From contig OZ020244.1 of the NCBI GenBank assembly GCA_963971285.1, positions 12,958,001 to 13,022,000 on the forward strand: a stretch of 64,000 bases of DNA, given 5' to 3'. A program made the position numbers and the translations under genes. Source of the DNA: Astropecten irregularis. Taxonomy: Eukaryota > Echinodermata > Asteroidea > Paxillosida > Astropectinidae. Below, piece after piece: positions 11,930-54,929 of this stretch. Position 1 is the stretch's first letter, and every line of letters starts with the position of its first letter. The notes below the pieces were generated by a model. That model did not search any database. It saw only the letters and a program-made list of their open reading frames with translations, and was not told the DNA's origin.

Positions 11930-11989
11930 CCTAAATGAAAATTAAAGAACAGACAGAGAATGAAAGATGGGTAGGAGAAGAGGAGACCT

Positions 11990-14203: not shown

Positions 14204-14500
14204 TTATTTGCACATTATCAAAAATTGCGTGTCTGAGCACCGCGAAGTCCACAGCGGCCACCACCACGGCCACCGCCACGACACCGCTGGCTCCAGTCGC
14301 ACTCGGCCCGGTGCCGCGGTGTTGGCTTGGCCCGCTCCCGGTACGGTGTTGTGGCACTTGAACCAGTTGAGTTCGTAGTCAAAATCATCATAAGAATCCC
14401 TGCTGATATCATTGGGATCTTCTGAACTAGTTGATTCCATGTCTGAATCAGGAAAAAGTCCAGCAAGAATTTTAGCCTCACGGTCAGTCATGATGCTCAA
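14204..14500 (-). CDS. Unrecognised 98-codon frame with acidic start and GC-rich tail
   Basis: It opens 'MSIMTDREAKILAGLFPDSD' and continues acidic (TSSEDPND, YDDFDYELNWF). It then enters a Gly/Pro/Ala/Arg-rich tail encoded by an unusually GC-rich patch (14,236-14,355) quite unlike its AT-rich surroundings. An acidic start of this type occurs at the front of piggyBac-like transposases, but no transposase core follows. It could be a first exon whose partner is lost, or chance. Confidence 0.28.
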   Translation of the reverse strand: MSIMTDREAKILAGLFPDSDMESTSSEDPNDISRDSYDDFDYELNWFKCHNTVPGAGQANTAAPGRVRLEPAVSWRWPWWWPLWTSRCSDTQFLIMCK

Positions 14501-14639
14501 GAGGCGAGCAAATTCCAGCTTGAAAACTTTGTTGGCGTTGTAACTTTGTAGGTCAATTTTCTCGAAAATTCGTAATGGCGTCCCTATGTGTATTGTGTAC
14601 CATTGGAAAGACGCGTCATTGAGCTTTCTATCTGTATAA

Positions 14640-17403: not shown

Positions 17404-18757
17404 GACCAGGCACTAAAGAAAACCTTCAAAATTTTACAACTTTGCTAAAATCTTTTTACTTTTGGAGTATAGGGCCTAGTACTTTTAGTAGCCTTTTCAA
17501 ATAATAGGTCTACTGCCTGTCAAGTTTTTTGGATGACCTGGAAAAAGTGCATTAGAAAGAAATGAGTGCACCAACTTTCTCCAAAAAAAAAAAGAACACT
17601 TAGTGTTCCGAGCACTACAGCTCTACGCAAGAATGGGACTTGTAACGGTAGTCAAGTTAAACTAATTGAGCGCTCACGTTATTGTATATTGTGTTTAGGC
17701 CTTACTTAATTTATAGCAGTTACTTCAATTGCTATCAATAAAGTCCCGTCAACTTAATTTTTACAAGTCCCTATTATAAATGCAAATATGTTTATTCAAC
17801 AAATATCCTCCTACTCCATCAGTCATATTCAAAATCGTCATTTTGGTTTACTGACGGACGGAAAAATTGTCTTGCTGAAAACTATGAAAATGATATAAAT
17901 GTAACATTAGACCAGGCCTTGCATGCGCAAAGCGGCCTTGCATGCGCAAAGCCTAAGTAGTAAGTAATGCCGTGTTTTGAACAAACGCAATGGCGACTGT
18001 CCTTATTCGGAGTTAGCTTAATGAGGCAAGAGGCTAGGCCTACACCTACATGTAACGTTATTCTAGTCAAACTACGGGCAAGGACCAGCCAAATTACTAT
18101 GGTCGGTGGCGTCAAAACAGAAACAAAAGTATGATTGGATGAAGCATAAACGAAATATTACTTCTTACCAGAGACACGACGGTCGATGGTCACGGTGTGA
18201 TGATTGGCAAACCTAGGCTATGCATATGCCGTGAGCGTCCGATGTATAATACAGCTGCATCCATGTAGATGCAAAGACACGCATGCGATAGAAAGCGTGT
18301 ATGCACATAGTAGACAGCAGCTCGACGCGACCAAGTGAAGTTGGCGTGCATGGCGCGCGCGTGTATTTGTTACGCATGCGCAATTTATTTCTATAGTTTT
18401 TGGAAACTTAAAAACTTGACTTTGCTTGAGATCTTTCAAACGTTTGAGTTTATACTACATGAGTGTAACAAAGTAATACGCAAATCCACTTATTTGTTAT
18501 CATGCAGCATCTTCAAGTTATTCCAACTTTTCAAAACGAAGCTAAATTTAAACTTTGGTGCATAAAGTGATGTGAATACTGAATAGTGAAAAGGCCTATG
18601 TCGTTTCTGTTTAATGAAGAAAAAATTTATTCTGAATTTGAACGGTTCTCTTGTGTCATTATTTTATAGGACCATCCCCTCACCAGCTTTACTACATTAA
18701 TAAATGACTGTAAAAAAAAAGAAAAAAAGAATACGATGATTTAAAAAAAATATACCT
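17404..18757. other. Stretch without a visible gene
   Basis: Upstream of the C2H2 gene. It includes an A-rich run at 17,582-17,593, a direct repeat of 'gccttgcatgcgcaaagc' at about 17,916-17,951, and scattered 'catgcg' words around 18,240-18,380. I find no convincing exon. Confidence 0.5.
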
Positions 18758-19096
18758 TCAGTTACTTGTCCACAAATGATGCGCTAAGTAGCCAGCTACA
18801 AAACATGCGAATACAAAAAGGGCTACAACCAATACAAACAGATGTTTGATGCAGTGCCTATTTTGATGTACATGTCCAGCTATGTCTGTCCAAACCAGCG
18901 GTTGTCGTCCTGTCCAGGAACTAGACCTGATCTGTGTGTCAGGCAAGCATGTAAAACCCGGCCTTTTTCTAGAAGTAGGCCTACTATGTCTAGGCCTAGG
19001 TATTCGAATTGGTCTTTGGGTGGGCTCTACTTCATCCAACGTGCTCATATCAACCAAAGTGGACATTTCCATCGACGAAGCCATGATGTGTGTCAT
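18758..19096 (-). CDS. Small putative tail-anchored membrane protein, 112 codons
   Basis: An open frame from ATG 19,096 to TGA. A second ATG four codons in (MASSMEM) may be the real start. The N-terminal part is polar, Pro/Arg/Ser-rich and carries acidic and basic clusters. The last 30 residues form one clear membrane helix, 'LFVLVVALFVFACFVAGYLA', ending HHLWTSN. There is no signal peptide, so the predicted form is a cytosolic domain anchored at its C-terminus. I do not recognise the family. The hydrophobic segment at the very end and an uninterrupted frame argue for a real gene, or the last exon of one. Confidence 0.35.
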   Translation of the reverse strand: MTHIMASSMEMSTLVDMSTLDEVEPTQRPIRIPRPRHSRPTSRKRPGFTCLPDTQIRSSSWTGRQPLVWTDIAGHVHQNRHCIKHLFVLVVALFVFACFVAGYLAHHLWTSN

Positions 19097-19861
19097 GTGT
19101 CAGATATAATAAACATGTATTATATAGGCATAAGTAAACATGCACATAATATTATAGGTAATTACACCTAATTAACTTTCCATGTTCAACCAAAAACTCA
19201 ATTTTGGTTCTTATGCTCGTTGTCAGCCGTGCTGATCAAACGCATTCAATTTAAGTTCGACACACTTGTCCAAAATATTGTGTTTTTATAACTTGGGTAT
19301 TAACGTTAAAGCAACACAAATACATGTTTTTTGTTATTAAATCATGGCAGAATTAATATTGCACCATTTTTGTTAAGTATTTCAAATCACTGCATGCTAT
19401 ACAAGTAGCCTACATGTATTTGGTATAGGTCTATACAATGTTTCCGAGTAACCGTAAAGTAATATAGAAAGTTAGAAGTAATCATAAGGAACCGAATGCA
19501 AAGGGCACCTCGTCATGAAATCAAACGATACTGAGTTATATTTGCGAACAAATGTATCCTCATCTTCATTGAAGATTGACTGTCCCGTAACCTTAGCTGT
19601 TTAATTGTGACAACATTATGTATTCTGTAAGCTGCACCCACTTGAGTATTTTATACTAAAATATAACAAGTAACAACCAATAATTTTCTCTTTGATTGGT
19701 AATTACTAAAAAGTGCAACTAATTTTAACTCAAATTTAATGTCGTTCCTTTTACTCAAAAAACGCCCCGGTTTACCTTAATTAATTCAAGTTATAGCGAC
19801 TAATTACAATATTAATTTTTTTCAACTCAAGTATCCTCATAAAATGAACTAAAAAGTGATT
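19097..19861. repeat. AT-rich stretch with ACTTAA-type repeat
   Basis: There is no gene. About 19,640-19,860 has the same 'actcaaaaaa ... aattaattcaagt ... ttttttcaactcaag' texture as the AT-rich sections of the two large repeat copies near 9650-9900 and 11,330-11,700, suggesting a shared noncoding element. Confidence 0.35.
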
Positions 19862-33450: not shown

Positions 33451-33454
33451 TTAA

Positions 33455-33700
33455 AGCCCAACTAAAATGATATCCACCTTTTTTTATGATTTCCTTTATT
33501 TTAACAGTTTATATCACCCTTTTCCAGAAATGAATATTCAAACTTCCGTATTTGTCCTTTTTGTGTTGTAAAGAATCCATCAAAGTGAGCAATTTTGCGA
33601 ACCCCAATTTACCGATTTCAGAAAACCTCATTAATATTAATCGTATGCATATGACCCCTGTGACGTCATTTCGGGACGCATTCGTTGCTAACTGGGCCAC
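33455..33700 (+). promoter_or_regulatory. Left Kolobok terminus with CRE-like promoter motif
   Basis: It contains the terminal inverted repeat and, at 33,657-33,675, GTGACGTCATTTCGGGAC, about 200 bases before the THAP ATG. TGACGTCA is the palindromic ATF/CREB site. 'TTGTATAAAG' lies directly before the ATG. The inverted twin is at the right end. Confidence 0.5.
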
Positions 33701-34397
33701 CATTGTGTAAAGACGTGGACACATCATGCACTGTGTGTTTCTTCTCGCGATTATCGATCATTGTTTACCTGTCAGCCTGTATTAATAATTAATATTTACG
33801 AGTCGCCCTTTACTGTATTATTTTCAATTTTGTTACATCTGGGAATTTACGTTGTTGTATAAAGGGATGCCTCGTTCGTGTGCTGTTGGAGGCTGTAAGC
33901 GAAATGCTCTGAGGATTTTTCGCCTTTCCACGAGACAGGAGAAGAAACCGTGCGTGGACCAAATTTGTGGACACCACAAGGTCCGACTTCAAACCAACAA
34001 AGTGGTCGGTAATTTGTCAGGAACATTTCAGAGGAGATTTTGTCGACAGTTCTAGCGTGCTTCAGAAGGAATTTGGGTTGAACAATTCAATACGATTGAA
34101 GCGAGACGCCGTACCAACGAAGAAGGCACCGTCGTTCGTGCAGGCCCCTGATCGTGGGCATGGTGGGCCAGTCGCCGGCCACACGGCTTCAACATCAGCG
34201 GGGCGGCGGTATAGCAAATTTCGTCGTCGTCGTTATGCTTACGATAAACGGGAGAGTTCCAGGGTAAGTGGGAAAGAAACATATTTAGTAGGCCTAAAAG
34301 CTCATTAGGCCTATTTGAATGAAAAAAAGTCAGCCGCTTATGATGAACATTCACAAAATAGCTCGAACGTGAATTGGTGTTTAAACTTTAACGTAAC

Positions 34398-35385
34398 TAG
34401 GCCTACTTCTAGATTTAGAACTTAGAAGGCTACTCCGTGAGCCTTCTTCTAGCACTATGGCAATGGGTTTTGACTTTTGAAAACAACAATTGATAGGCCT
34501 AGATGAAATTTTGGTGAAACATTGCAGCACATACCGCCACTCCTAGATCGTGAATTCCCCTGAATTATTTTTTTCTTGATCCTCATACATCCGTTATGCT
34601 TGTGCAGTCTTATTTTTGTAATTTACCCACAACTTTTCGAGAAAAAAATCGACTTTCTGGGCCACTTCACTTGAGGAAAGAATTCTGTTTTCGAGTTCAT
34701 TCATAATTTTTATAGTAGGCCTATGGGCAAAAGCATTATTGTATAGGGGTGTGCACATTGAACATGTTGAAGGAGACATGAAAATCATGCATGCCACATG
34801 CACACCACCATGCACACCACACAGTATAGTGGGAGCCAGTCTCAATAAAAAAGATAAAGCTTCAACAACTGGTATCCGCGCACATAAGAGCCATTTCAAT
34901 GCATGCAGCAACCGGGGGAACCAGTGAAGTCAAGTTGCACCCCTTCAGAAAATGGTAGATCCAATAATGCACATGCGGACTAGACAACTTCAAGCATGGG
35001 GAAGGAAAGCAGCAGGTAAACATCGGACATTTCTGCAAGTGGAGTGGCACAGAATATCATTTTTTTTCTCAAAAACTTGTGAGTCAATTACAAAAATGAG
35101 ACTGCACAAGCATAACGGATGTATGAGGAATTTGAGGATCAAGAAAAAAAATAATTCAGGGGAATTTGTGATCTAGGAGTGGCGGTACTGGACTACTGGT
35201 ACTAGTGAGTAGTGGTAGGTGCCTGCAATGTTTCACCAAAATTTCATCTATCAATTGTTGTTTTCAAAACCCATACTAGCGTTACGGCACCCCAAAAAGT
35301 AAGAGTGCTAGAAGGCTCACGGAGTAGCCTTTAGCCTTCTAAATCTAGAAGTAAACGTAACATTTAGGCCTATGATGCATTCACT
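34398..35385. mobile_element. Large fold-back element, copy 1 (intron 1 of the transposase)
   Basis: Long arms mirror each other. The left has 'acttagaaggctactccgtg' and 'ggtgaaacattgcagcac', 'cctagatcgtgaattcccct', 'catacatccgttatgcttgt'; the right carries their reverse complements. A second, related copy is at 47,370-48,310. Confidence 0.8.
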
Positions 35386-35464
35386 GTGTGTGTTTAGGCC
35401 CCTATTTTGAAAGTGTTGATTTTTCGTTGCGGCATGTTTCCTTTGCAAAACACACACATGATGA

Positions 35465-36365
35465 TATACGAGTTGATCAGCGTACGAGTTGGTTGGCGTC
35501 CGAGTTGGTCGGCGTATGACTGAGTGTAGCAGCGTACAAGTTGACCAAACGATTACAAGTCAACTTGCCCTCTAGCCGACTCGCCCCTGACCAACTCGCC
35601 CCCCTGGCCGACTCACCCCCTCCCCAACTCGCCCCCTGACCGACTCGCCCCTTACCAACTCGCTTCCTCCCCGACTCGCCCCCTGGCCGACTCGCCCCCT
35701 GACCGACTCGCCCCCTGGCCAACTCGCCCCCTTATTTATTCAGAAATGAGATGCAAAATGTGAAGTTCATTATGCATCATAATTAATAACTAAATGCTAA
35801 CCGCCCTTTTGTAGGGCCTACTATGTGTTTATGTCAGAACGAAAAATGCACAAAGTCCACACACAAACTCCTGCATGGTTCGATTGCAGTTCAAGCAATT
35901 TAATATTTCCTTCGCAGAACCAAAAACATCAAAACTTCAAAAACGCAACTTAAAAACAAGAAAAACAAGTGAACAACGACACTTAAAACAAACCATAGAA
36001 CAAAACATATCGTCATAATAAAAAAGTCTACAAAAATGTCAACAATAACACTTAAAGCTAGACATGATAATATTTTAAAACAAAACGATAACAAAATATG
36101 CTAAGAAAGAACATCGAATAATAAAACAAAAAATTGTTATTTTATCTCAAAGAGTCACAAAAACTCAAAAACATCGTCATAACGACAAAAACACAAAAGT
36201 CGGTCAGGGGGCGAGTCTGGGATGGGGCGAGTCGGCCAGGAGACGAGTTGGTAAGGGGCGAGTTGGCTAGGGGGTGAGTTGACCTGTTTCCGACCAAACA
36301 GTGCACAAGTTGGTCGGTGTACTAGTTCAGTAGTTGGTTGCCATACGATTTGACCTGCTTCATTA
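35465..36365. repeat. Fold-back whose arms are minisatellites
   Basis: The left arm holds 'acgagttggtcggcgtatg' words and then about ten variants of the 15-16 bp unit CCCCCTGGCCGACTCG (35,570-35,735). The right arm (36,198-36,355) carries the reverse complement units, such as 'ggggcgagtcggccagg' and 'gacgagttggtaaggggc'. Between them lies A-rich sequence. Related 'acaagttggtcggcatac' pieces recur at 37,640-37,680 and 46,335-46,445. Confidence 0.65.
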
Positions 36366-37191
36366 CTACTACTTGTACAACTGAGTACTAATGACTTAGT
36401 GTGCTTCAATATTTTGATTGAGATCTGTGTTGTTTTTTCTCAGGTCATTGATGAAGCATTTTCAGAATATGCTGAAACTTATGGTCAGGAAAGTGCCGAC
36501 TCGTCATCAGACTCGACAATAAGTGCACCAGGCAGCCCAACGTTCTTGGAGGTATATTATTACATCTCAAAAAGAATATGAACTACATGTACACTGTATT
36601 ACAATGATTACTACATAGGATATTCTGCATAAAATATACTACAACGATTGCTAGTTTACCTTTTTTTCATTCTTGAAATTCAATTTCATTTTTGACAATT
36701 ATAGGCTAATGTTCTTCTGATGTGCGTTGATTCTACATGTATATGGTCAATGCTGACATGTATTTCATTGAACTAATTAAATGTTCAGCCCCAAATCCTC
36801 TGCTAAAGGTTTGTGGTTGCAGCTACAGCTGGTGATGTTATTTGTGGAAACTAGATGATGTAGCTGCACCTTGCACTGGACTAGGAATCATTATAACCTA
36901 CTTCTTAAATTCTTACCAGAAAAAGTTTCACTCACTTTTTGAGTTACTTTGTAGAAAGGTGCCCAATTTATTTCCTTTGCACTTTAAGTTTCTTATTGTG
37001 TTATTTTTTTTTCTTACTATAGAGCCCAACCAAGAGCATCACAGCAAGTCCCCGGAAGCAATTGACCATTCAGCTTGATGTTGACAAGACAAATGTAAAC
37101 CCAATCGAACCCCCTAAGCGGCGCTTTGTACGTTCGATAAGAACAAGTACAGATTTACGATATATGACTCGAACTCGAGGTAAATACTACA

Positions 37192-37420
37192 CTTGGGGTG
37201 AAGTCGTTTAAAGTCGCGGTGATCGTCTCTTCTTCCACGCAACTCTTTCGAAACCGCTCTACTATCTCGTGAGACTCATGGTTACGGCGAGAGATCGGCT
37301 CTCGGTTCAGGACCACTTGAAAAGAACTCTTGCTGTTGTCATGAGTCTCGCGAGAAAGTAGAGCAGTTTCGAGAGAGATGCGTGAAAGAAGAGGCGATCA
37401 CCTCGACTTCAAACTACTTG
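37192..37420. repeat. Fold-back repeat in transposase intron 3
   Basis: 'GGTGATCGTCTCTTCTTCC' pairs with 'GAAAGAAGAGGCGATCACC', and 'CTCGTGAGACTCATG' pairs with 'CATGAGTCTCGCGAG'. Arms are about 90 bases around a short centre. Confidence 0.75.
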
Positions 37421-38111
37421 GCATCAAGTCACTTTTAAATTTTAATTGGAATGGCAGAAACACTTTATTGTAGATTTCCAGTCTACATAATGGGACAGAA
37501 AAAACTGGTTGAAACTTCAGTGCATGTATAAAGAACTGGATCAACTCATACTCACAGTCAACTGGTACCCAAAAATATACTGTACACTTGGGTGAAGTTG
37601 ACCCCTGTGAACTGTGTTGTGACAATGATTGCAACGTTGTCAGTATGAGTTGGCTTGGGTACGAGTTGATCAGAGTACAGGTGTAGTTAACAAGTGCTAT
37701 GAGTATGAAGTTTGAAATTTGAGCAAGAACTCTGCATGCATGATCACGAAGGACTGATTTTTTGTACTTATTAATTTTTTACAAATTTTAATATTTGTGT
37801 TGATTTGTTATTCTCAGTGACACAAACTCCGAAGCTGCCTCCGGGAGCATTTGCATCAAAGGGAACAACATGCGAACTGGTCAAGCTGCCACCACTGCAA
37901 TTATTGAAACACACAGGGCCTGTTCAATCCATAGTAGAGGAGGACATGGCAGGAAAGGACGACAGGGACCAGGAGGAGGAGGAGGAAGAAGAACAGGAAT
38001 CTATGGACAGTGACTACTGTCCTTCCAGCTCAGATTCTGATAGCAGTCCTTGCCTAAGGTACATGTGCATTATGTGCACTAGATATTACACAACACCTAT
38101 ATAGATGGGTT

Positions 38112-38553
38112 TCAATAGACCGATCCAGTAAGCCCCGCCCTATTTCGCATTGACCAATCACAGCCGCGAAAATCTGATCACCAATTGCAGCAGCCATTTT
38201 GGTGATCTCATGCTGGAGATCATGGTATTGATTACTGCGGTGTTTATGTTTACGAAATGGAAAAACAATAAATACTGCCCTCTGTAAGTGCAGCACAACT
38301 TCACAAGTACAGTATCTTTCTGCTACAAATTGATGGTGTTTATATTTCCATTGTAATTCTGACTCTCGATGGCCTGGTAAGAGACGAAACGTACATTTGT
38401 GACTTTTTCCAAAACCAGAGTCCCATAGAGATAAGTGCTTTCGGTGATGGGCTTGCAACGCGTGTTGGCGATCGTGACACGTTACGCGCGCGCGTGTGCG
38501 TCGTTGCTTGGCCGTTGCTATGGTGGGCGTTGCCTACTGGATCGGTCTATTGA
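38112..38553. mobile_element. MITE with TCAATAGACCGATCCAGTA ends
   Basis: It begins TCAATAGACCGATCCAGTA and ends with its exact inverse TACTGGATCGGTCTATTGA. It lies in transposase intron 4. Most of it, apart from the right 70 bases, was copied into the templated insertion at 40,121. An open frame of 134 codons on the minus strand is a by-product and appears identically in both places. Confidence 0.85.
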
Positions 38554-40120
38554 TTTTGCGTTCAATATCATGAAGCAAATAAAGAATGTTTTTCATTTGT
38601 GCAAAACAATTTTTATTCATGAGTTGATCAATTCAATGAGCCGCAAGTGAGTCCAATGGAACATTTCATCTTGAATTTCATCAGTCAACTCATGAAAATA
38701 TCCTTTCCTTTACAGTCACAAACATTCTTCAGTTTTGTAATGTCATACATTGTTATATTTTTAATCAACTTTTTCTTGGTAAGGGTTTGTAACTTGAGTT
38801 GACTATTATCAGATTATACAAAATGTTGTTCAAATGTATTTTCCATAAGGAAATGAAACACTCAGCTTTGTTTGAATGCCTTAAATATTCTTAGTGGAAT
38901 TTTTAAAGTTGAAAATGTAACTCTTTTAAAAGTGATAATTACTCTCAATGAAATAAGGTATTTTTGTCTTATAACTGTGTTTTGGCCTTTCTTCCAACTT
39001 GCAGTTCAGACATTGATGAGAACCCATCAGCCTACAATAAAAAATATATCGTCTTCGAGGGGAATCTACTATCACTATTCTCAACATGTCCCAAGTGTGC
39101 TGGTCCGTCCAAAAGAACCATCAGTCGACCAGTCGGCGGAACCCTAGCAGAGGTTCATCAGATGTGCCGGAGGAAGTCCTGCAGCTACTCCAGGAAGTGG
39201 CGAAGCCAGCCGATGGTGGGGAATTGCCCTGCAGGCAACCTAATGCTGTCGGCTGCGCTGCTACTTTCTGGAGCGTGCGTGAAGAGGGTATTGCAGGCTT
39301 TATGCAATATAAACCTTGCCGTCTTCACGTACCAGACTTACTTCAACTATCAGCGAAAGTACGTTCACTCTGTTGATTTATCGATAATTAACTTTGTAGC
39401 CACAACAATGGCTACCCAAACAATGCATACATGAACTTATGAATGAACATTAGAATATCGTATATATTGTACATGAAATGTTGCAGATATCTACAGCCAG
39501 CCGTTGTGCATGTGTGGTGGAATGACAGAGAGAATGTGCTGGCGGCCATCAAGGGAAGACAATCGCAAGCAGACCTAGCTATGGATATGAGGGCAGATAG
39601 CATGGGACACAGCGCCAAGTATGGCTGCTATAGCACTTTGGATATGAATGAAGGAAAAGTTCTTCATATCGAGGTCGTCCAGGTAAGCACTTTGGACAAT
39701 ACCTTTGCAAATGTATGTGCTAATTTCTTGTTTATGTTTTTTCCAGGTGGGGCGCACTGCCGCTGGAATCTAGCACACACAATTTCTGCATTCACATTTC
39801 TCAAATGCAGTCCAATTACAATTTCAGATTATCAGTGCCATTTCGTCAAGTATAAAGCAATGGAATGTGATATGAAGTTAATAGCAAATAAAGCAGTTGT
39901 GTCAATTCAACCCTTTCTTATGAATTAGAAAAGCGAAACGGAGCACAAATCCCCATTGATAGAGAAGGAGGGAATGGTGAGAACAGTCCAGTGGCTTGAT
40001 GATAACGGGGTGAAGATTAGAACAGTGGTGACAGACCGTCATAAGCAGATCGCCAAGTACATCCGCGATAACCTTGCACCCAGAGGAACTACACACTATT
40101 ATGATGTGTGGCATGTTGCC

Positions 40121-40694
40121 TAAGGTACATGTGCATTATGTGCACTAGATATTACACAACACCTATATAGATGGGTTTCAATAGACCGATCCAGTAAGCC
40201 CCGCCCTATTTCGCATTGACCAATCACAGCCGCGAAAATCTGATCACCAATTGCAGCAGCCATTTTGGTGATCTCATGCTGGAGATCATGGTATTGATTA
40301 CTGCGGTGTTTATGTTTACGAAATGGAAAAACAATAAATACTGCCCTCTGTAAGTGCAGCACAACTTCACAAGTACAGTATCTTTCTGCTACAAATTGAT
40401 GGTGTTTATATTTCCATTGTAATTCTGACTCTCGATGGCCTGGTAAGAGACGAAACGTACATTTGTGACTTTTTCCAAAACCAGAGTCCCATAGAGATAA
40501 GTGCTTTCGGTGATGGGCTTGCAACGCGTGTTGGCGATCGTGACACGTTCCATTGCTTTATACTTGACGAAATGGCACTGATAATCTGAAATTGTAATTG
40601 GACTGCATTTGAGAAATGTGAATGCAGAAATTGTGTGTGCTAGATTCCAGCGGCAGTGCGCCCCACCTGGAAAAAACATAAACAAGAAATTGCC
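40121..40694. other. 574 bp templated insertion in a transposase exon
   Basis: 40,121-40,549 is an apparently identical copy of 38,055-38,483 in direct orientation (429 bases). 40,548-40,691 is the reverse complement of 39,722-39,865 (144 bases). The insert is bounded by TTGCC at 40,116-40,120 and again at 40,690-40,694. TTGCC also precedes the first template (38,050-38,054), and the two copied pieces meet at a shared TT. The broken codons are VWHVA and KG: the exon resumes as GCCAAAG-GTTAGT at 40,692. It is therefore a two-step template-switch product, not a transposon. Confidence 0.88.
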
Positions 40695-41271
40695 AAAGGT
40701 TAGTAAAAGCCAACCAAGCCAATCAAGTAAAAGCCTGAAAATTTTCACTCAATCCCTGCTATAACGTTTTCAATTCTGCTGACATATCACTGTGTCTTTT
40801 AAGTGACATTTTGTACAGTTATTTTGATAAATCTTTTTGTCTTTTACAAAGGGGTGTGTACACGCATTAAGGGTTACAAGATAATCAAGGCTTCCTATTT
40901 TCCATTTGCTTTCCTGAATAATTAAATAAAGGTAATGTTATAAGTCAATTGTTTGTACTATTAATTTCTTGAATTATTAGGTCTCAAGAAGAAACTCCGT
41001 GCCTTAGGACAAACTAAAGGATGTGAACCAGTAAGAGAATGGGTGCATTCCATTGTAAACAATCTTTACTGGGTGGCATCCTCTACGCCTGGAGGTGACC
41101 CAGACTTGATGTGGGCAAAATTCGAGAGCGTTACGAACCACATCATGAACGTTCACGTCCATAACAATCCTTTGTTTCCCAGATGTGCGCATGAGGATTT
41201 GACGGATCGAGAGTGGCTTACCCCAGGTAAATTCTTTGCATGTCTACGAGCTAAAACAATAGCCGTTCAAT

Positions 41272-41609
41272 TTAAAGGTAGTATCATACTTTAGTAAGAA
41301 ACCAAAGCAGAAATTTTCACAGATTTACGTATAACTTACAGGGTTTGAAGATGGTAGTGTTAGAAACATACCGTTTCTGAAATGGTGTATTTATCCAGAA
41401 ATTAGTAAAACAACGACAGAAATCTTGTTGAACTTTTAAAAGAGAAAAGACTGAAGAAATACTGTGGCTGATTTTCACTGTTTTCTCAAAAAGTGGGCAC
41501 CGTATGGGACTGAAATTTTCACAGATGACTGTTACTGTATCTGTCTAGATGTTTTTGCCCATGAATCTGTATTTCTTTGATAAAAACCAAAGAATGATAT
41601 TACCTTTAA
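41272..41609. mobile_element. MITE, AGGTAGTATCAT family, copy 3
   Basis: TTAA-AGGTAGTATCATACTTTAG at the left and ATGATATTACCT-TTAA at the right. It lies in the intron after the 'DREWLTPG' exon. The TTAA is intact on both sides. Confidence 0.82.
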
Positions 41610-42052
41610 CAGATTGATGTACATGTATTCCATTTGTAATGGACCAATGGTCCATTATTCACCGTTATTCATATCATTGTACCCTTCCATTTTAATAGGA
41701 GGCCTAAACCTGATACTGATTTGCATTCCATCTAGACAGAGACGGCCTACTTTCTTTCAATATTGTGTGATTTGCTCATACATGTGTATTACTACTGCTG
41801 CTTCTTTTTAGGATCTAAAGCTGCTGTCAAAATTGAAACGATCTTGGAGAGTCCCTACATGATGAAGGATGTTAGGATGTTGTCTCCATCTACACAGACT
41901 TCAGCAGTAGAGGCATTTCATGCCCTAATCATCCAATTTGCTCCCAAGATGTATGTTTACTCATATGAGGGAATGCTGTGCAGGTAAGGCTTATCACTGT
42001 ATTAGCCACATCCTTTGCAATATGCTTCACCCACTTTTTCAATACTTTATTG

Positions 42053-42240
42053 GGTTTTCCGCGTCAGCGAAAACCCATTATTTTTGTTCTGTGTGATTTT
42101 TTCTTCCTTCCTCTTCTTGTCGCCAAAATTCCTATAGACAAAACACAGGGGCATTCTAGACCCCAATCTGAAAGTCCATATTGGGTAGTTGTCTCCCGAA
42201 ACTTTTCGTCATCATGATGTCATCAGGTGTCAAATTACAA
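42053..42240. repeat. Palindrome-ended repeat, GGGTTTTCCGC type (partial)
   Basis: Starts with the hairpin GGGTTTTCCGCGTCAGCG-AAAACCC, followed by T-rich 'attttttcttccttcctc'. It shares 'gtcatcatgatgtcatc' and 'gtgtcaaattacaagcg' with the element at 56,214. The far end is not seen. Confidence 0.5.
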
Positions 42241-43246
42241 GCGATTTGATTTTAATAATCAAAATCTTAAAAAATCGACAAAAAATCTACGCATTTCTTC
42301 ACTCAGTTGATGCAGAAGTTGCACAAATTTATCAGAAGTCAAGTATTTAAATTTAGCAAAATATCAGATAATGGTCATTATAACTGATATGTTCCACATT
42401 GTCTGACACAGGATCTACCTCGCTGCCCTTCACTTTAATGAAAATGCTGGACGAGAGCAAGCCATTCGAGCTGATGGACAACAGGCTTACAGCATTTCGT
42501 TTCCCAGGTCTAAACAGGAAAGCGGAGGCTACAGTGTTCGCAAGTTACTTGTACAGTGCACATACAGTAAGTTAATTGTTCAAGAAACTCACTGTTGGTT
42601 TTATGTGCATCTTTTTCAAGGTGATCGGATGAAGAAGACTTTTGAATGTTGTGCAGTAAAGGCCAGTACATTGGAAAATATTCCATTTGTCCACACTAGT
42701 CTAGTGCTTCTCGACAGTGAGTTACAATTGACTTTGTTTCACACACATATTGTGCTGGAATGGGAAACTTCAGATTTAAATCTGAACATTTTTTTTAGAT
42801 TTCATCTCAGAATTTCAGGTTTTTTTTGTACACCTGCTCTGTACAAAGTTACAGAAACTTTAAAATGTCAGCTGTTTCCTTCGTGTTTTCAGATTTTTTT
42901 GTTTGTGGCCACTCCCAGCCCTGAATGAGGTTTTTCTTTTTAATATTTCCCTAATATAGAATACAACCACTCTGTGATCAACAAGGCCATTAATCTGTGT
43001 GAGGACAACATCAAGGAGTCATGGAAAGCGTATGATGTCTTGAACAAGAATCTGGGACCACTTACAGCTTCCAAACAGAAGCCAGTGAAGGAAACAGCTG
43101 TAGCTGAGTTTGTGTCCAGATTTGCTATGTCTGTGACACAAGTAGAAAGGCCCGAAGGCACTCAAGGCCTGATTGTTGAAAACGAAACAACAAAGAAGAG
43201 GAAACAGAAGCAAAAAGAAAGGAAGAAGAAGGGTAACCAAAAATAG

Positions 43247-44604
43247 GGCGTCGAACAAAAACAAGAGAATAGGATACTAATGAAACCCTAATACATATGA
43301 ACAGAAATTCACATTTTTACTAGTATTATTAGTATGGATGGAAAGCAAAAAGTGTTATACATGTACATGTAAATAAAAGGAAAAAAGGTTAATCAAAGTC
43401 ACGTGATGTCATGTAAATAGAACATAACAGGTCCTATCTGCAGTTACGGCAGGATTTCTTTTATATGGCAGCATGGGGGGACACGCTGTGTTCCGCCCCA
43501 GTGGCATTGGAAATTTAGCATATTGAAATGGTTCCCCAAGAATACTCTAACTGACATGTATGGACCTGTAGATTTAATCCATCAAATACAACAACTACAT
43601 GTACAATAATCTTTAAAGATTAAAGTGACTGGACCAAACCTGCTAATGCTATTGGTGTATTCATTCAAAAACATCCTACGCATACGAAGTGCAAATTGAT
43701 TTGTATAGATTACTTGTATTCTAAACTACATGTGCACCAACATTAAAGTGATAAACAGGGCAAAGTCTGAAAGAATGTAGTTTTGCAGTGACACCATGTA
43801 ATCTCTTCTGTGATTGTGTGGTTCTGAGAGGAATGAACAGAGCACACTGTTCAGAACGTTGAGATACTACCACCGGTTCTTCTCAGAACCACAGTCTCAC
43901 AGAAGAGCTTACATCTGTACATGGTGTCAGCACAAATCTATCTTCTTTTAGTACGTCCACCACGCATAGCTTCAAGTCTTATTTAGGGCAAAGTAGGTAT
44001 TTGTATGTAAACATTACAAAATTTACAATGCATAAAAAGGAGAATACAACAATTTCCCTGTGTGAATCACATTTTATTGCTTCTGTAATAGTGTGACGTG
44101 TGTTATTGCACTGACTGAGTACCGGTACAGTGTATTGAGACATCATTGGAACCCAAAGAAATTTAAGTGACATCTTGCATAGTCTACCTTAGTACCAGTA
44201 CATATACAGTACATGTATTGCAACTGTGAAGTGAAGTCTGTTTACTATTCAGCAGTTATTGACATACATGTAATGATTCTTTTCATTTCATTCATACAAA
44301 CATAAATAACCTCTATTTTACATGGACCTGTCCATCTACAGACATACTGTACCAAAATTGTAAAGTTCTAAGACAGCGTTTATAAACTTGACAGTGGCAT
44401 AAAATAATGTTTCACAACTTGATCCTGAGAACAGTAGGACTTGTGAGATGCCCAAAATCCATACTAAATATTACCATGAACAGTGTATATTGAATGGTAA
44501 TTTGTGGGGAAAACAAGCATAAAACAGCAAAAGAAACTCAGTAATCTGTATTTCTTTGATAAAAACCAAAGTAACAGTGTGAACATAGGCAAGATATGGA
44601 GCAC

Positions 44605-44635
<31 letters not shown>

Positions 44636-44672
44636 AGGCAAGAAATGGACAGACATACCTCCGAATGTTTTT
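43247..44672. other. Gap between the convergent Kolobok genes
   Basis: No gene. A fold-back lies at 43,790-43,936: 'TGACACCATGTAATCTCTTC' pairs with its inverse ending 'ACATGGTGTCA', and 'GTGGTTCTGAGA' with 'TCTCAGAACCAC'. A C-run/CA microsatellite lies at 44,603-44,636. Confidence 0.55.
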
Positions 44673-45685
44673 AGCTGTTTCGCATGCAGCGGAACAGCTT
44701 TTGTTTTTCTTATTTTTCTTTTCCACTTTTTTTCCATAGACATAACACAGGGATTTGCTAAGAGCCACTTCTACCATTATGCCAATTACAATCAACTTCA
44801 TACTTGGCACATAGTTAGACCCCGAATAGTGTCCCGCGTATGTACGTCATCGTTATGTCATCACGTGCACAATTACGTCATCATAAAAGCACAAATTTTA
44901 GGGCTCTTTATCTCCGGAACGGCAAGTCCGATGCAGCTCAAACTTGGTATGTAAGTATATGGGGACGTGTTATAGACAAACATTGCAGTCACGTGTTGAT
45001 GACGTCATCTTGTGATTTTATACAAATTATTCAATTTTTGGACCTTTTCTCATGAACGACAAATCGTATTTTCGAAATTCTTTCGGTAATATGCTTGTTA
45101 GGCTATAGGCACATGCCACAAAATACCAAAAAGGTGTGACGTCATGATGACGTCATCAAAAAGCCGATTTTCTGATTCACATATAAGGGAATATCAGACG
45201 GTGATGAAACTTGGTGGGTAGGTAGGGAATGGTACTACTCTCCCAAATGTGAAGTAACGTCACGATGACGTCATCGACTGATTTTTTATTGATTTTTTTG
45301 AATAATTAATTTTGCCATTTAGAGTCACACAAAACACGGTCTTTGAAACTTTTTGGACCGCTGATATGGCTATCTATAGTAGTGGGCCAATTGTGTACAT
45401 GTGAACGGAGCACGACATAGCTAGAAAATCAATCATTTTGCTGTTTCCACCGCCCATATGCACAACCATACATACTTTGCGCGCTGGTCAATAGTAGACT
45501 CAGCCATTTCTGTGTTTCCCATGGGCATGTGTATGTACATGTATATGTATACGTGTAATGATGGACGGGTGACGACGCTCCTGATAGTTGTTTACGACAA
45601 TTAAAACACCGCTATTTCTCTGTACTGGGCCAATTGCGTTCATGTTTGTTTTTCATATTATTTATACAACATACGCGAAACAGCT
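44673..45685. mobile_element. Palindrome-ended repeat, AGCTGTTTCGC type, 1.0 kb
   Basis: The left end is the hairpin AGCTGTTTCGC-ATGCAGCG-GAACAGCT, followed by T-rich sequence. The right end carries one arm inverted, GCGAAACAGCT. The inside has repeated 'gacgtcatgatgacgtcatc' words. One terminal hairpin, a T-rich tract and short inverted ends recall Helentron-like non-autonomous elements. The class is uncertain. Confidence 0.5.
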
Positions 45686-45718
45686 CAGTGTTTGTCAACA
45701 AACACAGGTCTAGATTTT

Positions 45719-48700
45719 TTACAAATCATCTAATGGAGGGTACTGGAAACCTTGATAAGTTCCATTCGGATCTGGATAAGTCTCATGCACCACTCTAATA
45801 ACACATGAAGGCATAGGCACCCGATTATGTCGTCCGAGGAAGCCCCAGCACCAACGCACAACCTGCCTGTAGGCCACATGTCGGAATTTCCTGGAGGGAA
45901 GGGAAGGAGGGGAAAAATTGCAATGTGTACATATTTGTTCTTGTTCAATTTCATTCCAATTCAAGGTGGGATCATGGGACTAAGAAAGTGAAATGTTATG
46001 TTTAGGAATGCTGCCAATCATAGTGTGTAGGTGGATGATAATTTTATATTGAGACTCAGTATGAATCCTGGTAAACTTTTATGCTGACAAACTCGTTTAC
46101 TGACCAACTTGTACACCAGTTGACTTTTCATTTTTTCCCCTTTAGAATTCCAATTATCTGGAAAAATTTTGACTGGAAAAATAAAATTTATCACATGGAA
46201 TAAAACCCTGATATTCCCTTAAAAAAGAAATCCCTGAAAAAAGCCAATCCCTCAAAAAAAAAATTGTGAACAATTCCAAATACATGTACTAAAACCGGTC
46301 AATTTCTAAAAAAAAAAACCAAAAAAACTCAGATTAAATACTCCAGTGGCATACGAGTTGGTCAGCATACAAGTTGGTCGGCATACAAGTTGGTCGGCGT
46401 ACTAAGTTGGTTGGCGTATATCGTATGCGCATATGAGTTGACCTGCTTCGCTCAGTACAAATCTTGAAAAAAAAAAAGAAACAAGACATGTACCTGTCTC
46501 TATCTCCCTCAACAGCTCTGGCTCCATAAGTCTGCCTATAGCCATAATAGGCAGTCTGTAGTGTCCCTGGATTAAGGCATGTAGCCTCAAACCAGGGGTG
46601 CTCGGTAAAGCAGCGCACCACACCCACGTTGGTTTCTTCAATTTTCTTGACCAACTCCGGTACTTCGAGACAGCATTTTGAAGTCAAAGCGTCTTGCTGG
46701 ACAATACATCGTCGACATGTGCACCTGAAATAAGTAGGGATAACACATCAAGTTTATTTCAAGTGCATGTATGATGTAAGGCCCATGTCAACTTGCTCAT
46801 AACTCCAACAATCTGATTGTGCCCAAAATTATGTATAAGGAAAGAAATTGGAAACAAATTGTTACTACGGTTACTATAGGCCTACTACTACTGAGTACTT
46901 CTTGTACCCCCTATTGGGGGTTCTTGAAGTTTAGTACACTCAGGTTAGCAGGTACCCAGCTTTCTACTCACCTAAATTCGAGGTGAGTAGAAGCTGTGAA
47001 CCAGCTAACCTGAGTGTACTAAACCTAACCTGAGTGGACTAAACTTCAGGAACCCCACTTATTGCTTCCCCAAAAGGAAAGATAACCGATGCAAATGAAA
47101 ATTTTGCAAGAATTCCATTGACGTGACGGCCATCATGCATCACTTGTGCACAAACATGGGACTGATATGACAGTCAGACAGTGTCAGACTCAAAGTGCAT
47201 GAGAAAAATGGTAACCGCTGCATTTGAAGGAATGCCCCATTTGAAGTCTATCATTGCAGGTAAAAAAACCCAGAAAACACTGAAAATCTCACTTTCCAGA
47301 ATACACCTGAGATTGAAGTTCATTATGACTTGCAATCAATAAGTTAACTCTTGGAGAATAGGCCCCGACCCCTTTTCTAGTTTTAGAACTGGCTTCTCAT
47401 TGAGCCTTCTATAACGTTAGTTCTACCTCCATGGTTCTACTGGGTGCCGTAAGGCATATAGCTATGGGTTTTGAAAACAACAACTGATAGGCCTAGATGA
47501 AATTATGGTGAAACATTGCAGCACCTACCGCGACTCCTAGATCGTGAATTCCCCTGAATTATTTTTTTTCATGATCCTCATACATCCGTTTTATATGCTT
47601 GTGTAGTCTCATTTTTGAAATTGACCCACAACTTTTCGAGAGAAAAAAAAAAATTTCTGTGACACTCCGCTTGCTGAAATGTCGACGCTTGCATGCATGC
47701 ATGTAACTCCTGCGTGAAATTGTCTAGTCCGCATGCGCATTATTGAATCTACCATTTTCTGAAGGGGCGCATTTTGACTTAGCTGGTTCCCGCGGTTGCA
47801 CGCCTTGAAATGGGTCCAATGCCTATATGCGCGGATAGGCCCAACTAGTTGTTGAAGCTTTATTTTTTTATTGAGGCTGGCTCCCACTTACTGTGGGTTA
47901 TGCACATGTGGCATGCGTGATTTTCATGTCTTCTTCAATATGCACACCCCTGTACAAAAATGCTTTGGCCCATACTAAAAATTTATGAATGAACTTTCTT
48001 CAAAGTTCAAGTGGAGTGACCGCAGAAAGTGCATTTTTTTCTCAAAAAGTTGTGGGTCAATTGCAAAAATTACACTGTACAAGCATAACGGATGTATGAG
48101 GATCAAGAAAAAAATAAAAATTCAGGGGAATTCACGATCTAGGAGTCACGGTAGGTGCTGCGATGTTTCACCAAAATTAAAAAAAAAAACACACAACCAA
48201 AAATGTCATGCCCATGGCGCGAAAAGTAAGTGCACTAGGCTAGGCTTACGGAGCTGAGTAGCCTTCTAATCTCACGAAGTAACGTTAGGCCTAGCCTTCT
48301 AAATCAAGAAGTACCCTTTTCCGTAATGGGGGGAGTGTAATTCTTTTAAAAAAAATCACTGTAAATGCTGTCAGCTTGGGAACCACCCAAAACTAAAAGA
48401 GGAATTTCGCTGAAAAAGATGTTTTTGTGAGAGGGAAAAAGTTGGCCCAACGTTACAAATTTCAAGTACGACCAACTTTTTTTATTTGGGGAACATTTTC
48501 AATTTCAATATTTTTTTTAACACCGGCGGTAGGCCTACTCGTTTCATTGGGTTTGAGCAAAATGTATAATGAGCAGGTATTAAATAAAGAATAATATATT
48601 AGTTTCCCTTTTTACAAAAAGAATAAAAGAAACATTAACTTACCAGTCTGTATTGCCCAACCGATGATTGTTCCGTCCCGCAGCCTGGACAACCATACCG

Positions 48701-48870
48701 TCCGCCGCTGCTCGTGGACGGGCTGGTGGCTCGTATCGATACGGTTCGGCTCCACGAACCACCGTGGCTGGCCCCGATCCATCATCCTCAATATTTATTA
48801 ATTCTTCGTCTGAGGACGACAAACTGCCATCACTCTCACTGGAAGAGCTTGTTTCGACTCTGTTGGCCAT
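45719..48870 (-). CDS. Kolobok second gene: protein with P2X7 C-terminal (ballast) domain
   Basis: Three minus-strand exons, 48,870-48,644, 46,724-46,494 and 45,890-45,719, with consensus GT/AG sites and matching phases. They give an uninterrupted 209-residue protein. Residues 1-75 are an acidic/serine and then Pro/Arg/Ala-rich leader. The rest is a Cys-rich domain: WCTCRRC, KCCLEVPEL, 'CFTEHPWFEATCLNPG', 'LQTAYYGYRQTYG', 'FRHVAYRQVVRWCWGFLGRH', 'VPMPSCVIRVVHE' and 'YPDPNGTYQGFQYPP'. Human P2X7 ends with the same order: WCQCGNC, CLEELCCR, 'VLQFLLLYQEPL', RHCAYRCYATWRFGS, 'ILPSCCRWRIRKEFP' and 'SEGQYSGFKSP'. In P2X7 this cytoplasmic domain binds zinc and guanine nucleotide. Here there is no membrane segment, so it is a soluble transposon protein, probably a zinc-binding helper in transposition (role inferred). 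The start ATG lies about 155 bases inside the CRE-like motif. Confidence 0.85.
46335..46445. repeat. Short tandem array 'acaagttggtcggcatac'
   Basis: Four or five 18-base units related to the arms of the 35,465-36,365 element. They lie in the last intron of the P2X7-tail-like gene. An unpaired related piece is at 46,085-46,125. Confidence 0.6.
46905..47062. repeat. Fold-back repeat, GGGGTTCTTGAAGTTTAG type
   Basis: 'GGGGTTCTTGAAGTTTAGTA' pairs with 'CTAAACTTCAGGAACCCC'; 'TTTCTACTCACC' pairs with 'GGTGAGTAGAA' about the centre. The inner right arm carries a duplicated 'aacctgagtg-actaaac' block. Related to 8288-8432. Confidence 0.75.
47370..48310. mobile_element. Large fold-back element, copy 2 (intron 1 of the second gene)
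   Basis: Left arm words 'gataggcctagatgaaatta', 'gtgaaacattgcagcacc', 'gatcgtgaattcccctgaat' and 'acccacaacttttcgag' all reappear inverted at 48,030-48,180. It is the same family as 34,398-35,385. Confidence 0.8.
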
Positions 48871-48984
48871 AATAATATTCCGAGGACAGTGGCAATGACA
48901 GCAATTGCAACGCGTTACGTGGATACAAGCATTGTGAAGTCTGGTACCGTTTTAAATGCGTGTAGGCCCTACATTGCCTGCGCC

Positions 48985-49230
48985 TAGTCTACAGACACCA
49001 TGGTTTATGCGAATGCGAGTCCCGAAATGACGTCACTGTGTTTACAAACACGCTATAATTTGACCTCGCGCTTTTCGGATTTCGGGCAAAGTGGGGGAGA
49101 AATAAAACTACTCTAAATAGTGTATTCAGTGTAATACTTGACAAATGTTAATTTCTGTGTATTGTTAAGTCCATAAACTACCAGGAAACACAAAAACTAA
49201 AAATACCATCCCGAGCTTTTTAGTTGGGCT
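48985..49230 (-). promoter_or_regulatory. Right Kolobok terminus with CRE-like promoter motif
   Basis: The inverted counterpart of the left terminus: GTCCCGAAATGACGTCAC at 49,019-49,036 and TTTTAGTTGGGCT at the tip. It lies upstream of the P2X7-tail-like gene. Confidence 0.5.
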
Positions 49231-49531
49231 TTAAGATAAATTAAAAACAATAATTATACAATGAATAAAAGCGAGATCTAAACATGTTATCCCAAGTACT
49301 ACGACTTTACTTGAAAAAGAAGCGTTGCGCCAGAGTGAGTAAGAACCCTTAAAAGATCACATGATATTAGTCACTGAATTAAACATGCATACAATATGAA
49401 TAATTCATCGCCACATTTGTTAAACGAAAGTCCACATCCCTACATTTTAATCAAGAAGCTCTGAAGCAAAAAGTCGGCACCATCCAAAATCGCTACCATG
49501 CTTGTGATCTGACTCTTTTGCACTGCGATAG

Positions 49532-51078: not shown

Positions 51079-51245
51079 TTTGTCAACAATGATTTAGAAA
51101 CAAAAAGCTGGAATTAAATGTTATTCTGGCATGAACATTAACTGTTTATTCAATTTAAGTATGCAACTAACATGGTAACAACAAAACTTAATCAATACTT
51201 ACTTCACTCCATCAGCTCTGATATATTTGTCACACTCCAACCGCA

Positions 51246-51725
51246 GGTAATCTTCCTGTGACAAGTGGACCACAGCCTGCAGTTACACCCCACGTGATGC
51301 TGGCAAGTCAGACTCCAACTTCTGGTGGTCTTCCAGAGACTGCTGGTCGGCAGCATGCAACGGTGCCTGAAGTGACACTGACAAGTCACACTCCAACCGC
51401 AGGTAATCGTCCTGTGACAAGTGGACCACAGCCTGCAGTTACACCCCACGTGATGCTGGCAAGTCAGACTCCAACTTCTGGTGGTCTTCCAGAGACTGCT
51501 GGTCGGCAGCATGCAACGGTGCCTGAAGTGACACTGACAAGTCACACTCCAACCGCAGGTAATCTTCCTGTGACAAGTGGACCACAGCCTGCAGTTACAC
51601 CCCACGTGATGCTGGCAAGTCAGACTCCAACTTCTGGTGGTCTTCCAGAGACTGCTGGTCGGCAGCATGCAACGGTGCCTGAAGTGACATTGACAAGTCA
51701 CACTCCAACCGCAGGTAATCTTCCT
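51246..51725 (+). repeat. 156 bp tandem repeat, block 1 (three units)
   Basis: Units start at 51,246, 51,402 and 51,558, with a partial fourth at 51,714. They are nearly identical. Each 156 bp unit is itself two diverged 78 bp halves (26 codons each), so the order is A-B-A-B-A-B. Every unit begins CAG-GTAATC, a potential splice signal. Confidence 0.88.
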
Positions 51726-54700
51726 GCTGGACAAGTTGTGGATATTGATGAAGATGCCATGTTTGATGCAGAGGATGACATCCCATTGATAAATTTTGTT
51801 GGTAATTCAGGTATGTATATTTTACATTACAGGTATTTCATTTTGAATTGAATAAAAAACTACAAAAAAAACAAAAACAATGGCTCAATGGAAGAATTAA
51901 TATTTATTTTCCTTTTCCAATACTGCCTTGTAGGAAAATATGGATCATCAAGTCGTCAGACAGCACCTTGTCAGGAGATGGTAACTGCAGTTAGCCCACA
52001 ACCTGCAACTACACCTCGGGTAACACTGGCAAGCCATACGGCAACTTCTGGTGGTCTTCCTGTGACAAGTGGACCACAGCCTGCAGTTACACCCCACGTG
52101 ACGCTGGCAAGTCACACTCCAACTTCTGGTGGTCTTCCAGAGACTGCTGGTCGGCAGCATGCAACGGTGCCTGAAGTGACACTGACAAGTCGCACTCCAA
52201 CCGCAGGTAATCTTCCTGTGACAAGTGGACCGCAGCCTGCAGTTACACCCCAAGTGACGCTGGCAAGTCAGACTCCAACTTCTGGTGGTCTTCCAGAGAC
52301 TGCTGGTCGGCAGCATGCAGCTATGCCTCAAGTGACACTGGCTAATGGTGTGTCATTTGCTTGTAGTTATGATAAGAGATTTGGTCCTCAGATTGCAGAA
52401 ACAAACACACCTCGAAATACTCTAATTAGTCCTTTGACATCCTGTAGTCCGCATGTAGCATGCAGTCCATTGAAGGGTTGCAATCCTCAAATGACAAATG
52501 ATCTTCAGAATACATTCAGTTCCCAGATTCCTCATACTAGTTCAGAAATACTGGCTTGTCCAACTTCTCGCTCATGCATAGAATCTTGCCTTGGTCCAGT
52601 TGTTGCATTCGCTGAATCAGTACCCACAAGTAGTCAGCAGACAACATCTTGCGATAATTTTTTCTGTGAAAAGGAGATTTTTGCTGCATGTGTAAAATGT
52701 CTTTGTTTGTTATGCTATGATCACTTTGTGCACAATGACAAATGCTCTTCTCACAATGTTTTCTTCAGTGCTTCACAAGCTGATCCTAATTTTTCTAACA
52801 GTGTTTCAGCAGCACTACCAACATGTAGTTCTGCAAACGTTGACAGAATGCAAGAATTCATCCAGGTAAGTGAGGATACTGCAGAGGAATCTGCTCATAC
52901 AGACAGGGCAAGTAAGGAGGTGGGTGCACAATTACCAACTGCATGTTTGAATACATTTCATGATGTTGAATATGATGAAGTACCATCACCTATTGGCTCC
53001 TTAAATCTAGAATGCCTCGATCAATGTGATGGAGACGACCTCACAGTTAATGACATTGCTAATGAAATGTCTGTGTTGGCTGACAGTGCACAGACGTCAT
53101 CCAGTGGTGTTCCAGAAAATGATGCAGGTAAGGACAATGAAGAAATGTCTTCCCATTTGGACAAAAATAAACAGAACTTATCACCAAGTAACTTTCCAGT
53201 TGATGGTGAAGCAATGCCGTTTGCACCCAAAACAACAAAACTTACAACAAGTAGAAATTTTGTGGTGAAACAAAAAAGGAATCTTGGTGAAAGTTACCAT
53301 TCAGAAAAAAGTGATCGTCAAATGCCGGCCAGGAGGGAAAGTACTCCTATCAGCAGTTGCGAATTTTGTGAAATACGAAAGTTGCAATGCAAAAAGATTG
53401 CAGATGAAGAATGCAGATGTATAAGAAATACCTACTTCGACCTAGGAAGCTTGCAACTGCAACGAGAATGGCTCAATCGCCATATTGAGTCCAATGAGGG
53501 AGGGAAAAGATTTTCCTACTTTCTACCCTATACTGATCAATATGTTGGGAAGAGAAAAGTATGCAAATCTAAATTTTTGACTACCTTAGGCATTTCTGAA
53601 AGACAGGTCCGCACGGTGATTCAAAAGCGAAAGTCATGTGGAGTACTTGAAGGTGAAAAAAGAGGTAAGAGGCAACAGAGTGAACGAGATAAAGCACTCA
53701 GAGATGAGGTTATTGAACACATTAATCTTTTCCCGCGTATGGAATCCCACTATTGCAGATCAAATAGTAAGTGCCATTACCTATCTTCAGAACTTAACCT
53801 ACCAATGATGCATAGTATGTATCGAGATATTCATCCAGGAGGTGCTTCTCTTTCTTTCTACAGAACAGTTTTTAAGTCACTTAACATGAAATTTCATCAT
53901 CCCAAAAAAGATATGTGCGGTCTCTGCGATACCTATCGGCATGGTAATCCTGAACAGAAGGAGAAGCTTGAGCAAGCTTATGCAAGGCATATACAAGAAA
54001 AGGAAAGAGTGAGAGAGCTCAAGACTGCAGCTAAAAAAAGAGCATCAACAACGAAAGACAACTGTGCTGCAGTTTTTGACTTACAACAGGTCATATACGT
54101 TCCTCAATCGTGTAGGTCAGAGCTGTTCTACAAGAGGCGTTTGGCGTGCTATAACTTCACGGTGTATGATCTTGCCAGTAAAGATGGATATTGTTTTTTA
54201 GCTCATGAAGGCCAAACAAAAAGAGGATCCTGTGAAATTGCTTCCCATTTGAATGCTTTCTTGCAGAGAGTGGACGATCTTGGTTTCAAAGAAGTAAGTC
54301 TCTTTTCAGATGGATGTTCTGGGCAGAACAAAAATTCAATAGTCCCCACAATGATGCTTTCTTTTGTTCAGCAGGCAAAGTCAGTCAAATCAATAACCTT
54401 ATATTTCTTTGAGACAGGGCATGGTCAAAGTGAGGGAGATTCGATGCACAGTGTGATCGAGAAGGCTGTCAAGCGTGCTGGGGATATTGCTGTACCCACT
54501 CAACTAGTTTCTGTCTGTCAAATGGCCAGAAAGACCCCCAAACCATACATTGTCATACAGGTCCAATCCAAAGATATTTCAGACTGGAAGACCTTGAGCC
54601 AGAGGAAAGGTGTCTTGAAGGTTCGCACCTCAGAGGAGGGAGTCAAAGTGGACTGGACCAAGTTCATGCAGATCAATGTATCTAAATCTTGTCCTGACAT

Positions 54701-54929
54701 CATTAGATTTAAATATTCACACACAGATCCTGAGTTCTATATGTTAAATCTTTGCAGTGCACGTAGAAGTGCTGGTAGTGACCTGATCAAACCACAGCTA
54801 TTGTATTCCACTGGACCTCCAAAAATATCACAGGGTAAGTATGATGATCTGAAGAGCCTGTGCACAGGTACCACGCCAGTGATTTCCCATTCAGATAACG
54901 TGTCATTTTATAACCAGCTTCCCCACTAG
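51246..54929 (+). CDS. Intact DDE-like transposase-related protein with 26-residue repeats
   Basis: Two open exons, 51,246-51,810 and 51,934-54,929, joined G|GA in phase. Exon A and the start of exon B are built from 26-residue repeats (VTSGPQPAVTPHVTLASHTP / ETAGRQHATVPEVTLTSHTP). A Cys/His module follows near 52,650-52,760: 'CEKEIFAACVKCLCLLCYDH', B-box-like. Then comes a basic region with 'CEFCEIRKLQCKK' and 'GISERQVRTVIQKRK' (53,350-53,640) and a core: 'HHPKKDMCGLCDTYR', 'AAVFDLQQVIYVPQSCRSEL' (about 54,070), 'LFSDGCSGQNKN' (54,303) and 'ETGHGQSEGDSMHSVIEKA' (54,411). The D, D and E/H residues in these blocks are likely catalytic. It is a second subfamily of the same uncharacterised transposase-like group. 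The first exon and start codon are unclear; the upstream PDADT exons end in the same phase, so they may be spliced to it. No break is seen. Confidence 0.7.
52049..52352 (+). repeat. 156 bp tandem repeat, block 2 (two units)
   Basis: The same A-B unit repeated at 52,049 and 52,205 beyond the intron, preceded by a more diverged unit from about 51,975. The intron (51,811-51,933) therefore splits one repeat array. Confidence 0.85.

Follow-up and report, generated by a model that had tools for sequence, protein, structure and literature searches.

A Kolobok DNA transposon of Astropecten irregularis that very probably carries a homolog of the P2X7 ballast domain as its second gene

The 64,000-nucleotide stretch of Astropecten irregularis DNA analyzed here (the window; GCA_963971285.1, contig OZ020244.1, positions 12,958,001 to 13,022,000) very probably contains a Kolobok DNA transposon of the Kol0 type. 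The second gene of this transposon, KolX, is a homolog of the ballast domain of the P2X7 receptor and very probably one of the regular genes of the element. That the P2X7 ballast stems from a transposon KolX is an idea already in print: the parts of Kojima and Bao 2022 (PMC9587614) drawn on here describe Kol0-lineage KolX proteins with a ballast fold and seven conserved cysteines, hold that P2X7 came about when KolX was fused to a P2X4-like gene, regard Nanor as a likely domesticated KolX, and note that a KolX-like piece is encoded by a few families of piggyBac. Rump 2020 (PMC7016195), drawn on likewise in part, finds ballast domains across Metazoa, and its main text has no word beginning with "transpos"; a search of the open-licence literature for purinoceptor 7-like together with transposon returned no match. 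Our analysis of one genome (475.7 Mb) adds to the published picture the conserved tail-to-tail order of KolX and the transposase gene, modest evidence for a parallel relatedness of the two proteins, and also a form of KolX nearest to P2X7 which, on sequence comparison, belongs to a different Kolobok family (the C30 type, below) from that of the window; loci are named here by contig and, where needed, position.

The ballast-type gene

KolX of the window consists of three minus-strand exons that are joined across GT-AG introns into a single open product, which has the 209 residues proposed in the initial annotation:

48644..48870, minus strand: KolX exon 1, translation start at 48870, N-terminus acidic and rich in Ser
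46494..46724, minus strand: KolX exon 2, blocks CTCRRC, CC and RCFT
45719..45890, minus strand: KolX exon 3, blocks RHVAYR, PSC and YQGF, then the stop codon

The sole Pfam family found in this protein at E-values up to 1 was P2RX7_C (3.3e-14, 53.7 bits against a cut-off of 23.5, residues 69-202), so that the same search gave no P2X channel domain. Among 177,635 distinct sequences of solved structures, four matched KolX at E-values up to 0.001, all of them P2X7 (best 5.3e-6). In alignment with two P2X7 sequences, the window protein retains all seven zinc-domain cysteines (WCxCxxC, CC, C and PSC) and has the RHxAYR and PSC...YxGF blocks as well; the same seven cysteines as in P2X7 occur in all four loci at which both halves of the ballast could be aligned. 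Judged by these alignments, the window KolX is a homolog of the P2X7 ballast domain, and the claims that its product resembles the P2X7 tail and has no channel part are borne out.

The whole ballast of P2X7, known from solved structures (6u9v and others), can be aligned to KolX with the seven cysteines in common, although KolX differs in having no P2X channel domain and in keeping two to three of five guanine-contact residues. Nanor and the stand-alone ballast proteins of Rump 2020 (PMC7016195, in the parts used here) are like KolX in having a ballast and no channel part; they were treated there as host genes, and our comparison of them with KolX is by description only.

Ends and transposase of the window element

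KolX lies within an element with the following ends and plus-strand transposase gene, the exon-like stretches of which were recognized by tblastn matches with the elements on C97 and C11 and with a sister copy, all described below:

33451..33467, plus strand: left TTAA and 13-bp terminal inverted repeat AGCCCAACTAAAA; top TTAA pair; same end in the sister copy
33867..34149, plus strand: THAP exon of the transposase; needs two frames in the window copy, open in the sister copy
39003-39356, 39485-39682, 39929-40120, plus strand: transposase exon-like stretches
40983-41228, 41811-41984, 42410-42565, 42962-43153, plus strand: transposase exon-like stretches
49218..49234, plus strand: right terminal inverted repeat and TTAA; top TTAA pair

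The element spans 33451-49234 (15,784 bp, matching the 15.8 kb TTAA-flanked element first proposed) and has a perfect 13-bp terminal inverted repeat, the TTAAs at 33451 and 49231 being the best among 7,380 TTAA pairs around the gene (score 13, next 8). It starts with AG and finishes with CT, and Kolobok termini are given as 5'-RR and YY-3' in the text of Kojima and Bao 2022 (PMC9587614) used here; the 4-bp TTAA target site duplication is present as judged from the TTAA at both element ends. The motifs TDRH, YDVWH and E-x-FH are found in the transposases of the window, C97 and C16, and the Kolobok arrangement of DDD/E with C/DxxH between the second D and the last E is recognizable by motif, the catalytic residues having been assigned by eye. 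The published Kol0 Kolobok elements (Kolobok-1_XT is named in PMC9587614) share with the window TTAA ends, a DDE transposase and a second gene for a seven-cysteine ballast protein, here KolX; the window element differs in its THAP domain, which goes without mention in the portion of PMC9587614 consulted, Kol0 being compared by description only. The THAP match itself (PF05485, 33949-34080) had an E-value of 0.0013 and scored 19.9 bits, under its cut-off of 23.9. Assignment to piggyBac was rejected, Pfam having matched no piggyBac family either to the pieces from the window or to the 671-residue frame of C16.

The sister copy lies on the same contig, 1.9 Mb off, and has lost its right end; at its left end the TTAA is present but the flanking sequence is another. 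Each of the three KolX exons has its match there, identical in residues, and over the aligned blocks 89 of 13,826 bases differ from the window. The THAP exon is open in the sister copy, in which 9 of the 64 residues of the exon with the YDVWH motif are unmatched. In the window the transposase gene (from the THAP exon at 33867 to about 43153) stands tail to tail with the minus-strand KolX, and the reported contrast between the two genes held up: KolX is open, whereas the transposase is broken, with its THAP exon split over two frames and 40094-40689 rearranged relative to the sister copy. This last interval has no counterpart in the sister copy, is mostly a copy of 38050-38484 plus an inverted copy of 39722-39869, and looks as if it had been patched during DNA repair.

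Several other features lie in and beside the element. Related blocks with internal inverted repeats, of fold-back look, occupy 34397-35353 and 47427-48294, one in the introns of each gene, and the sister copy is without 47552-48520. A minisatellite with a unit of roughly 16 bp is located at 35568-35746, inside the transposase gene region. Just outside the element, an open frame of 1,013 residues at 51888-54929 (plus strand), accompanied by 78-bp tandem repeats (51195-52454), matches DUF7869 below threshold (23.9 bits, cut-off 26); because a frame of similar look, by eye, exists near C1:13.23 Mb, this frame may belong to another mobile element.

Other element types with both genes

KolX is paired with a Kolobok transposase in at least three element types. 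The second type is represented by C97 and C11:24.73 Mb (7,600 and 6,672 bp), which have TTAA at both ends and differing flanks. A relative of this type on C16 (7,310 bp; of 462 TTAA pairs its own scores highest, 7 against 5 for the next) contains between its TTAA ends an open 671-residue transposase frame, with a THAP match of 59.5 bits, and KolX. Six further loci are short deletion copies of the C97 type (1,183-1,203 bp, TTAA at both ends) that retain the KolX start sequence and are too small for a transposase. Adjoining the C97 Kolobok, at 10938-19274 of the joined C97 stretch, is a 2,779-residue open frame, presumably a retrotransposon polyprotein from its look.

The third type, C30, is about 8.35 kb long, with 14 of 16 repeat bases agreeing (repeat score 13, next-best 3), and ends in TCAA on the left and TTAA on the right. 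On C9 we found the left part only of an element of this type, 99.5% identical over 2.7 kb and with TTAA at its left end. The C30 KolX has an extra cysteine-rich N-terminal exon (8930-9124 of the C30 locus stretch), which tblastn did not detect in the other loci read except the near-identical C9 copy; its resemblance to a CXC domain was set aside, as Pfam names no family there.

Pairing across the genome

A genome search with the P2RX7_C profile gave 32 places, merged to 28 ballast loci; two transposase queries found 91 distinct places, or 52 loci after merging. These counts are lower bounds because the searches score best candidates only, and as the two queries did not include the transposase of the window, its subfamily may be undercounted. 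A transposase lies within 10 kb of 11 of the 28 ballast loci, and 10 of those 11 pairs are convergent and no more than 5 kb apart, two of them (C1:13.96 Mb and C3) placed from coordinates alone. Because 39 of the 52 merged transposase loci are on C11, we handled C11 18.9-24.9 Mb as a region of its own; outside C11, 8 of 18 ballast loci are near a transposase, whereas the control averages 0.01 and never exceeds 1 in 20,000 draws. Adding to the 10 convergent loci the six short copies and C9, 17 of the 28 ballast loci are tied to Kolobok. The proposed co-occurrence of this gene with Kolobok transposases and TTAA ends thus extends to other copies and families of the same genome, and KolX is very probably a regular gene of the element rather than a chance passenger. 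All 11 of the P2X places listed are on contig C10, on which the P2RX7_C search lists no ballast place.

Six loci in which both genes were readable allowed identity matrices to be compared (49 residues of KolX and a transposase segment). The same three closest pairs appeared for KolX and the transposase, namely the window with C11:19.41 Mb, C97 with C16, and C30 with C1:13.22 Mb, and the matrices had a correlation of 0.71, which was reached by 16 of 720 label permutations. This lends modest support to the view that KolX and the transposase diverged and traveled together.

A number of results weigh against this account. The rank correlation of the same two matrices is only 0.18 (P 0.52), and therefore the signal sits in the closest pairs. 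C11 itself shows no significant excess: 3 of its 10 ballast loci have a transposase nearby, against 1.24 on average in the control (P 0.12), and one of the three (C11:20.22 Mb) has a transposase piece on the same strand and is not among the 17 tied loci. Ten of the 28 ballast loci are without a Kolobok tie (C1:15.09 Mb, C4, C19 and seven on C11), and the 28 loci are not independent, since copies of the same transposon have both genes in common. Both the C97 type and C16 have short, imperfect inverted repeats; the C97 ends were set by comparing copies and do not rank first among the TTAA pairs scored for repeats. KolX differs between the two window-type copies at 1 of 622 coding bases (8 of 630 being left out), which is no significant sign of constraint beyond the rest of the element (P 0.08), and we dropped selection on KolX as a line of argument since so few differences cannot tell.

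At three of the 10 untied loci the surrounding 20 kb was read and one weak, same-strand transposase relic was seen, for which reason C1:15.09 Mb was rejected as a Kolobok locus. The region of C11 at about 19-22 Mb is crowded with pieces of Kolobok transposases, many with stop codons, and holds most of the unassigned ballast loci.

Nearness to P2X7 and direction of capture

The KolX forms differ in their nearness to P2X7. Against the solved P2X7 chains the best scores were 91 bits for the C30 type, 72 for C1:15.09 Mb (pieces joined), 41 for C97 and 29 for the window, which is the most distant of the four forms scored; the E-values were 6.9e-25 for C30 and 1.6e-9 for C97. The ballast of C30 lies within one exon, whereas that of the window is interrupted by an intron, and the P2X7 ballast is encoded in exon 13 according to Rump 2020 (PMC7016195, in the parts used here), who also lists the guanine-contact residues as R546, H547, R574, R578 and K583 (rat numbering). 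The window KolX keeps two of these five (R546 and H547) and the C30 form three (R546, H547 and R578). Being nearest by score, with a single-exon ballast and three contact residues, the C30 type is the better stand-in for the donor of the P2X7 tail, and the window gene a poor one. Capture of a transposon protein by the P2X7 lineage fits these results, which fall short of proving it.

The reverse direction, in which Kolobok captured an old host ballast gene and the P2X7 tail also came from that host gene, appears unlikely to us, yet it has evidence in its favor: Rump 2020 (PMC7016195, as far as drawn on here) describes linkage of the ballast gene with two markers in animals ranging from sponges to sea urchin, an observation in favor of an old host gene, and the 10 untied loci count on the same side. 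It is opposed by the 17 tied loci, by the agreement of both genes in their closest pairs and by the location of the form nearest P2X7 inside a Kolobok element. That ballast genes and Kolobok are neighbors merely because both gather in repeat-rich DNA is very improbable; the lack of a significant excess on C11 agrees with it, and it could hold for the untied loci there, but the excess outside C11, the TTAA ends common to copies with different flanks and the tail-to-tail order in 10 of 11 close pairs speak against it, and for the window copy, where the ends enclose both genes, it is refuted. A shared cysteine pattern without common descent, suggested by the 29 bits of the window protein, can practically be dismissed given the profile match of that same protein and the C97 and C30 matches to P2X7, which span the whole ballast.

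Possible role of KolX and significance

On the reading that KolX belongs to the element, it would be a small protein with a zinc-based fold, produced by the element as an accessory to its transposase. It might, as we suggest tentatively and with some doubt, work within the transposition complex by contacting DNA or a guanine nucleotide. In a more specific and decidedly less probable version, KolX would hand a guanine nucleotide to the Kolobok complex from outside, and the GDP/GTP site of P2X7 would be a relic of that job. This version is prompted by two published observations, each taken from part of its source: GTP must be bound in the insertion domain of the P element transposase, which is a THAP protein too (PMC7776569), and guanine nucleotides are bound by the ballast of P2X7 (Rump 2020, PMC7016195, citing McCarthy). 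With two to three of the five contact residues retained, we treat this version as a lead only. The P element transposase has a THAP domain like that of the window and, per the text of Kojima and Bao (PMC9587614) used here, the C/DxxH group in common with Kolobok; its GTP-binding domain is, however, built into the transposase (PMC7776569), unlike KolX, a separate protein.

With the transposon origin of the ballast already proposed in print, the surprise of these results is limited. The ballast, whose function is unsettled, nevertheless belongs to a drug target, the immune receptor P2X7, and this genome offers concrete objects for study, namely the C16 element with its open transposase frame and the C30-type KolX, the nearest to P2X7 among the forms scored. 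If the ballast did come from a transposon helper, the original setting of its zinc and nucleotide sites is accessible to study.
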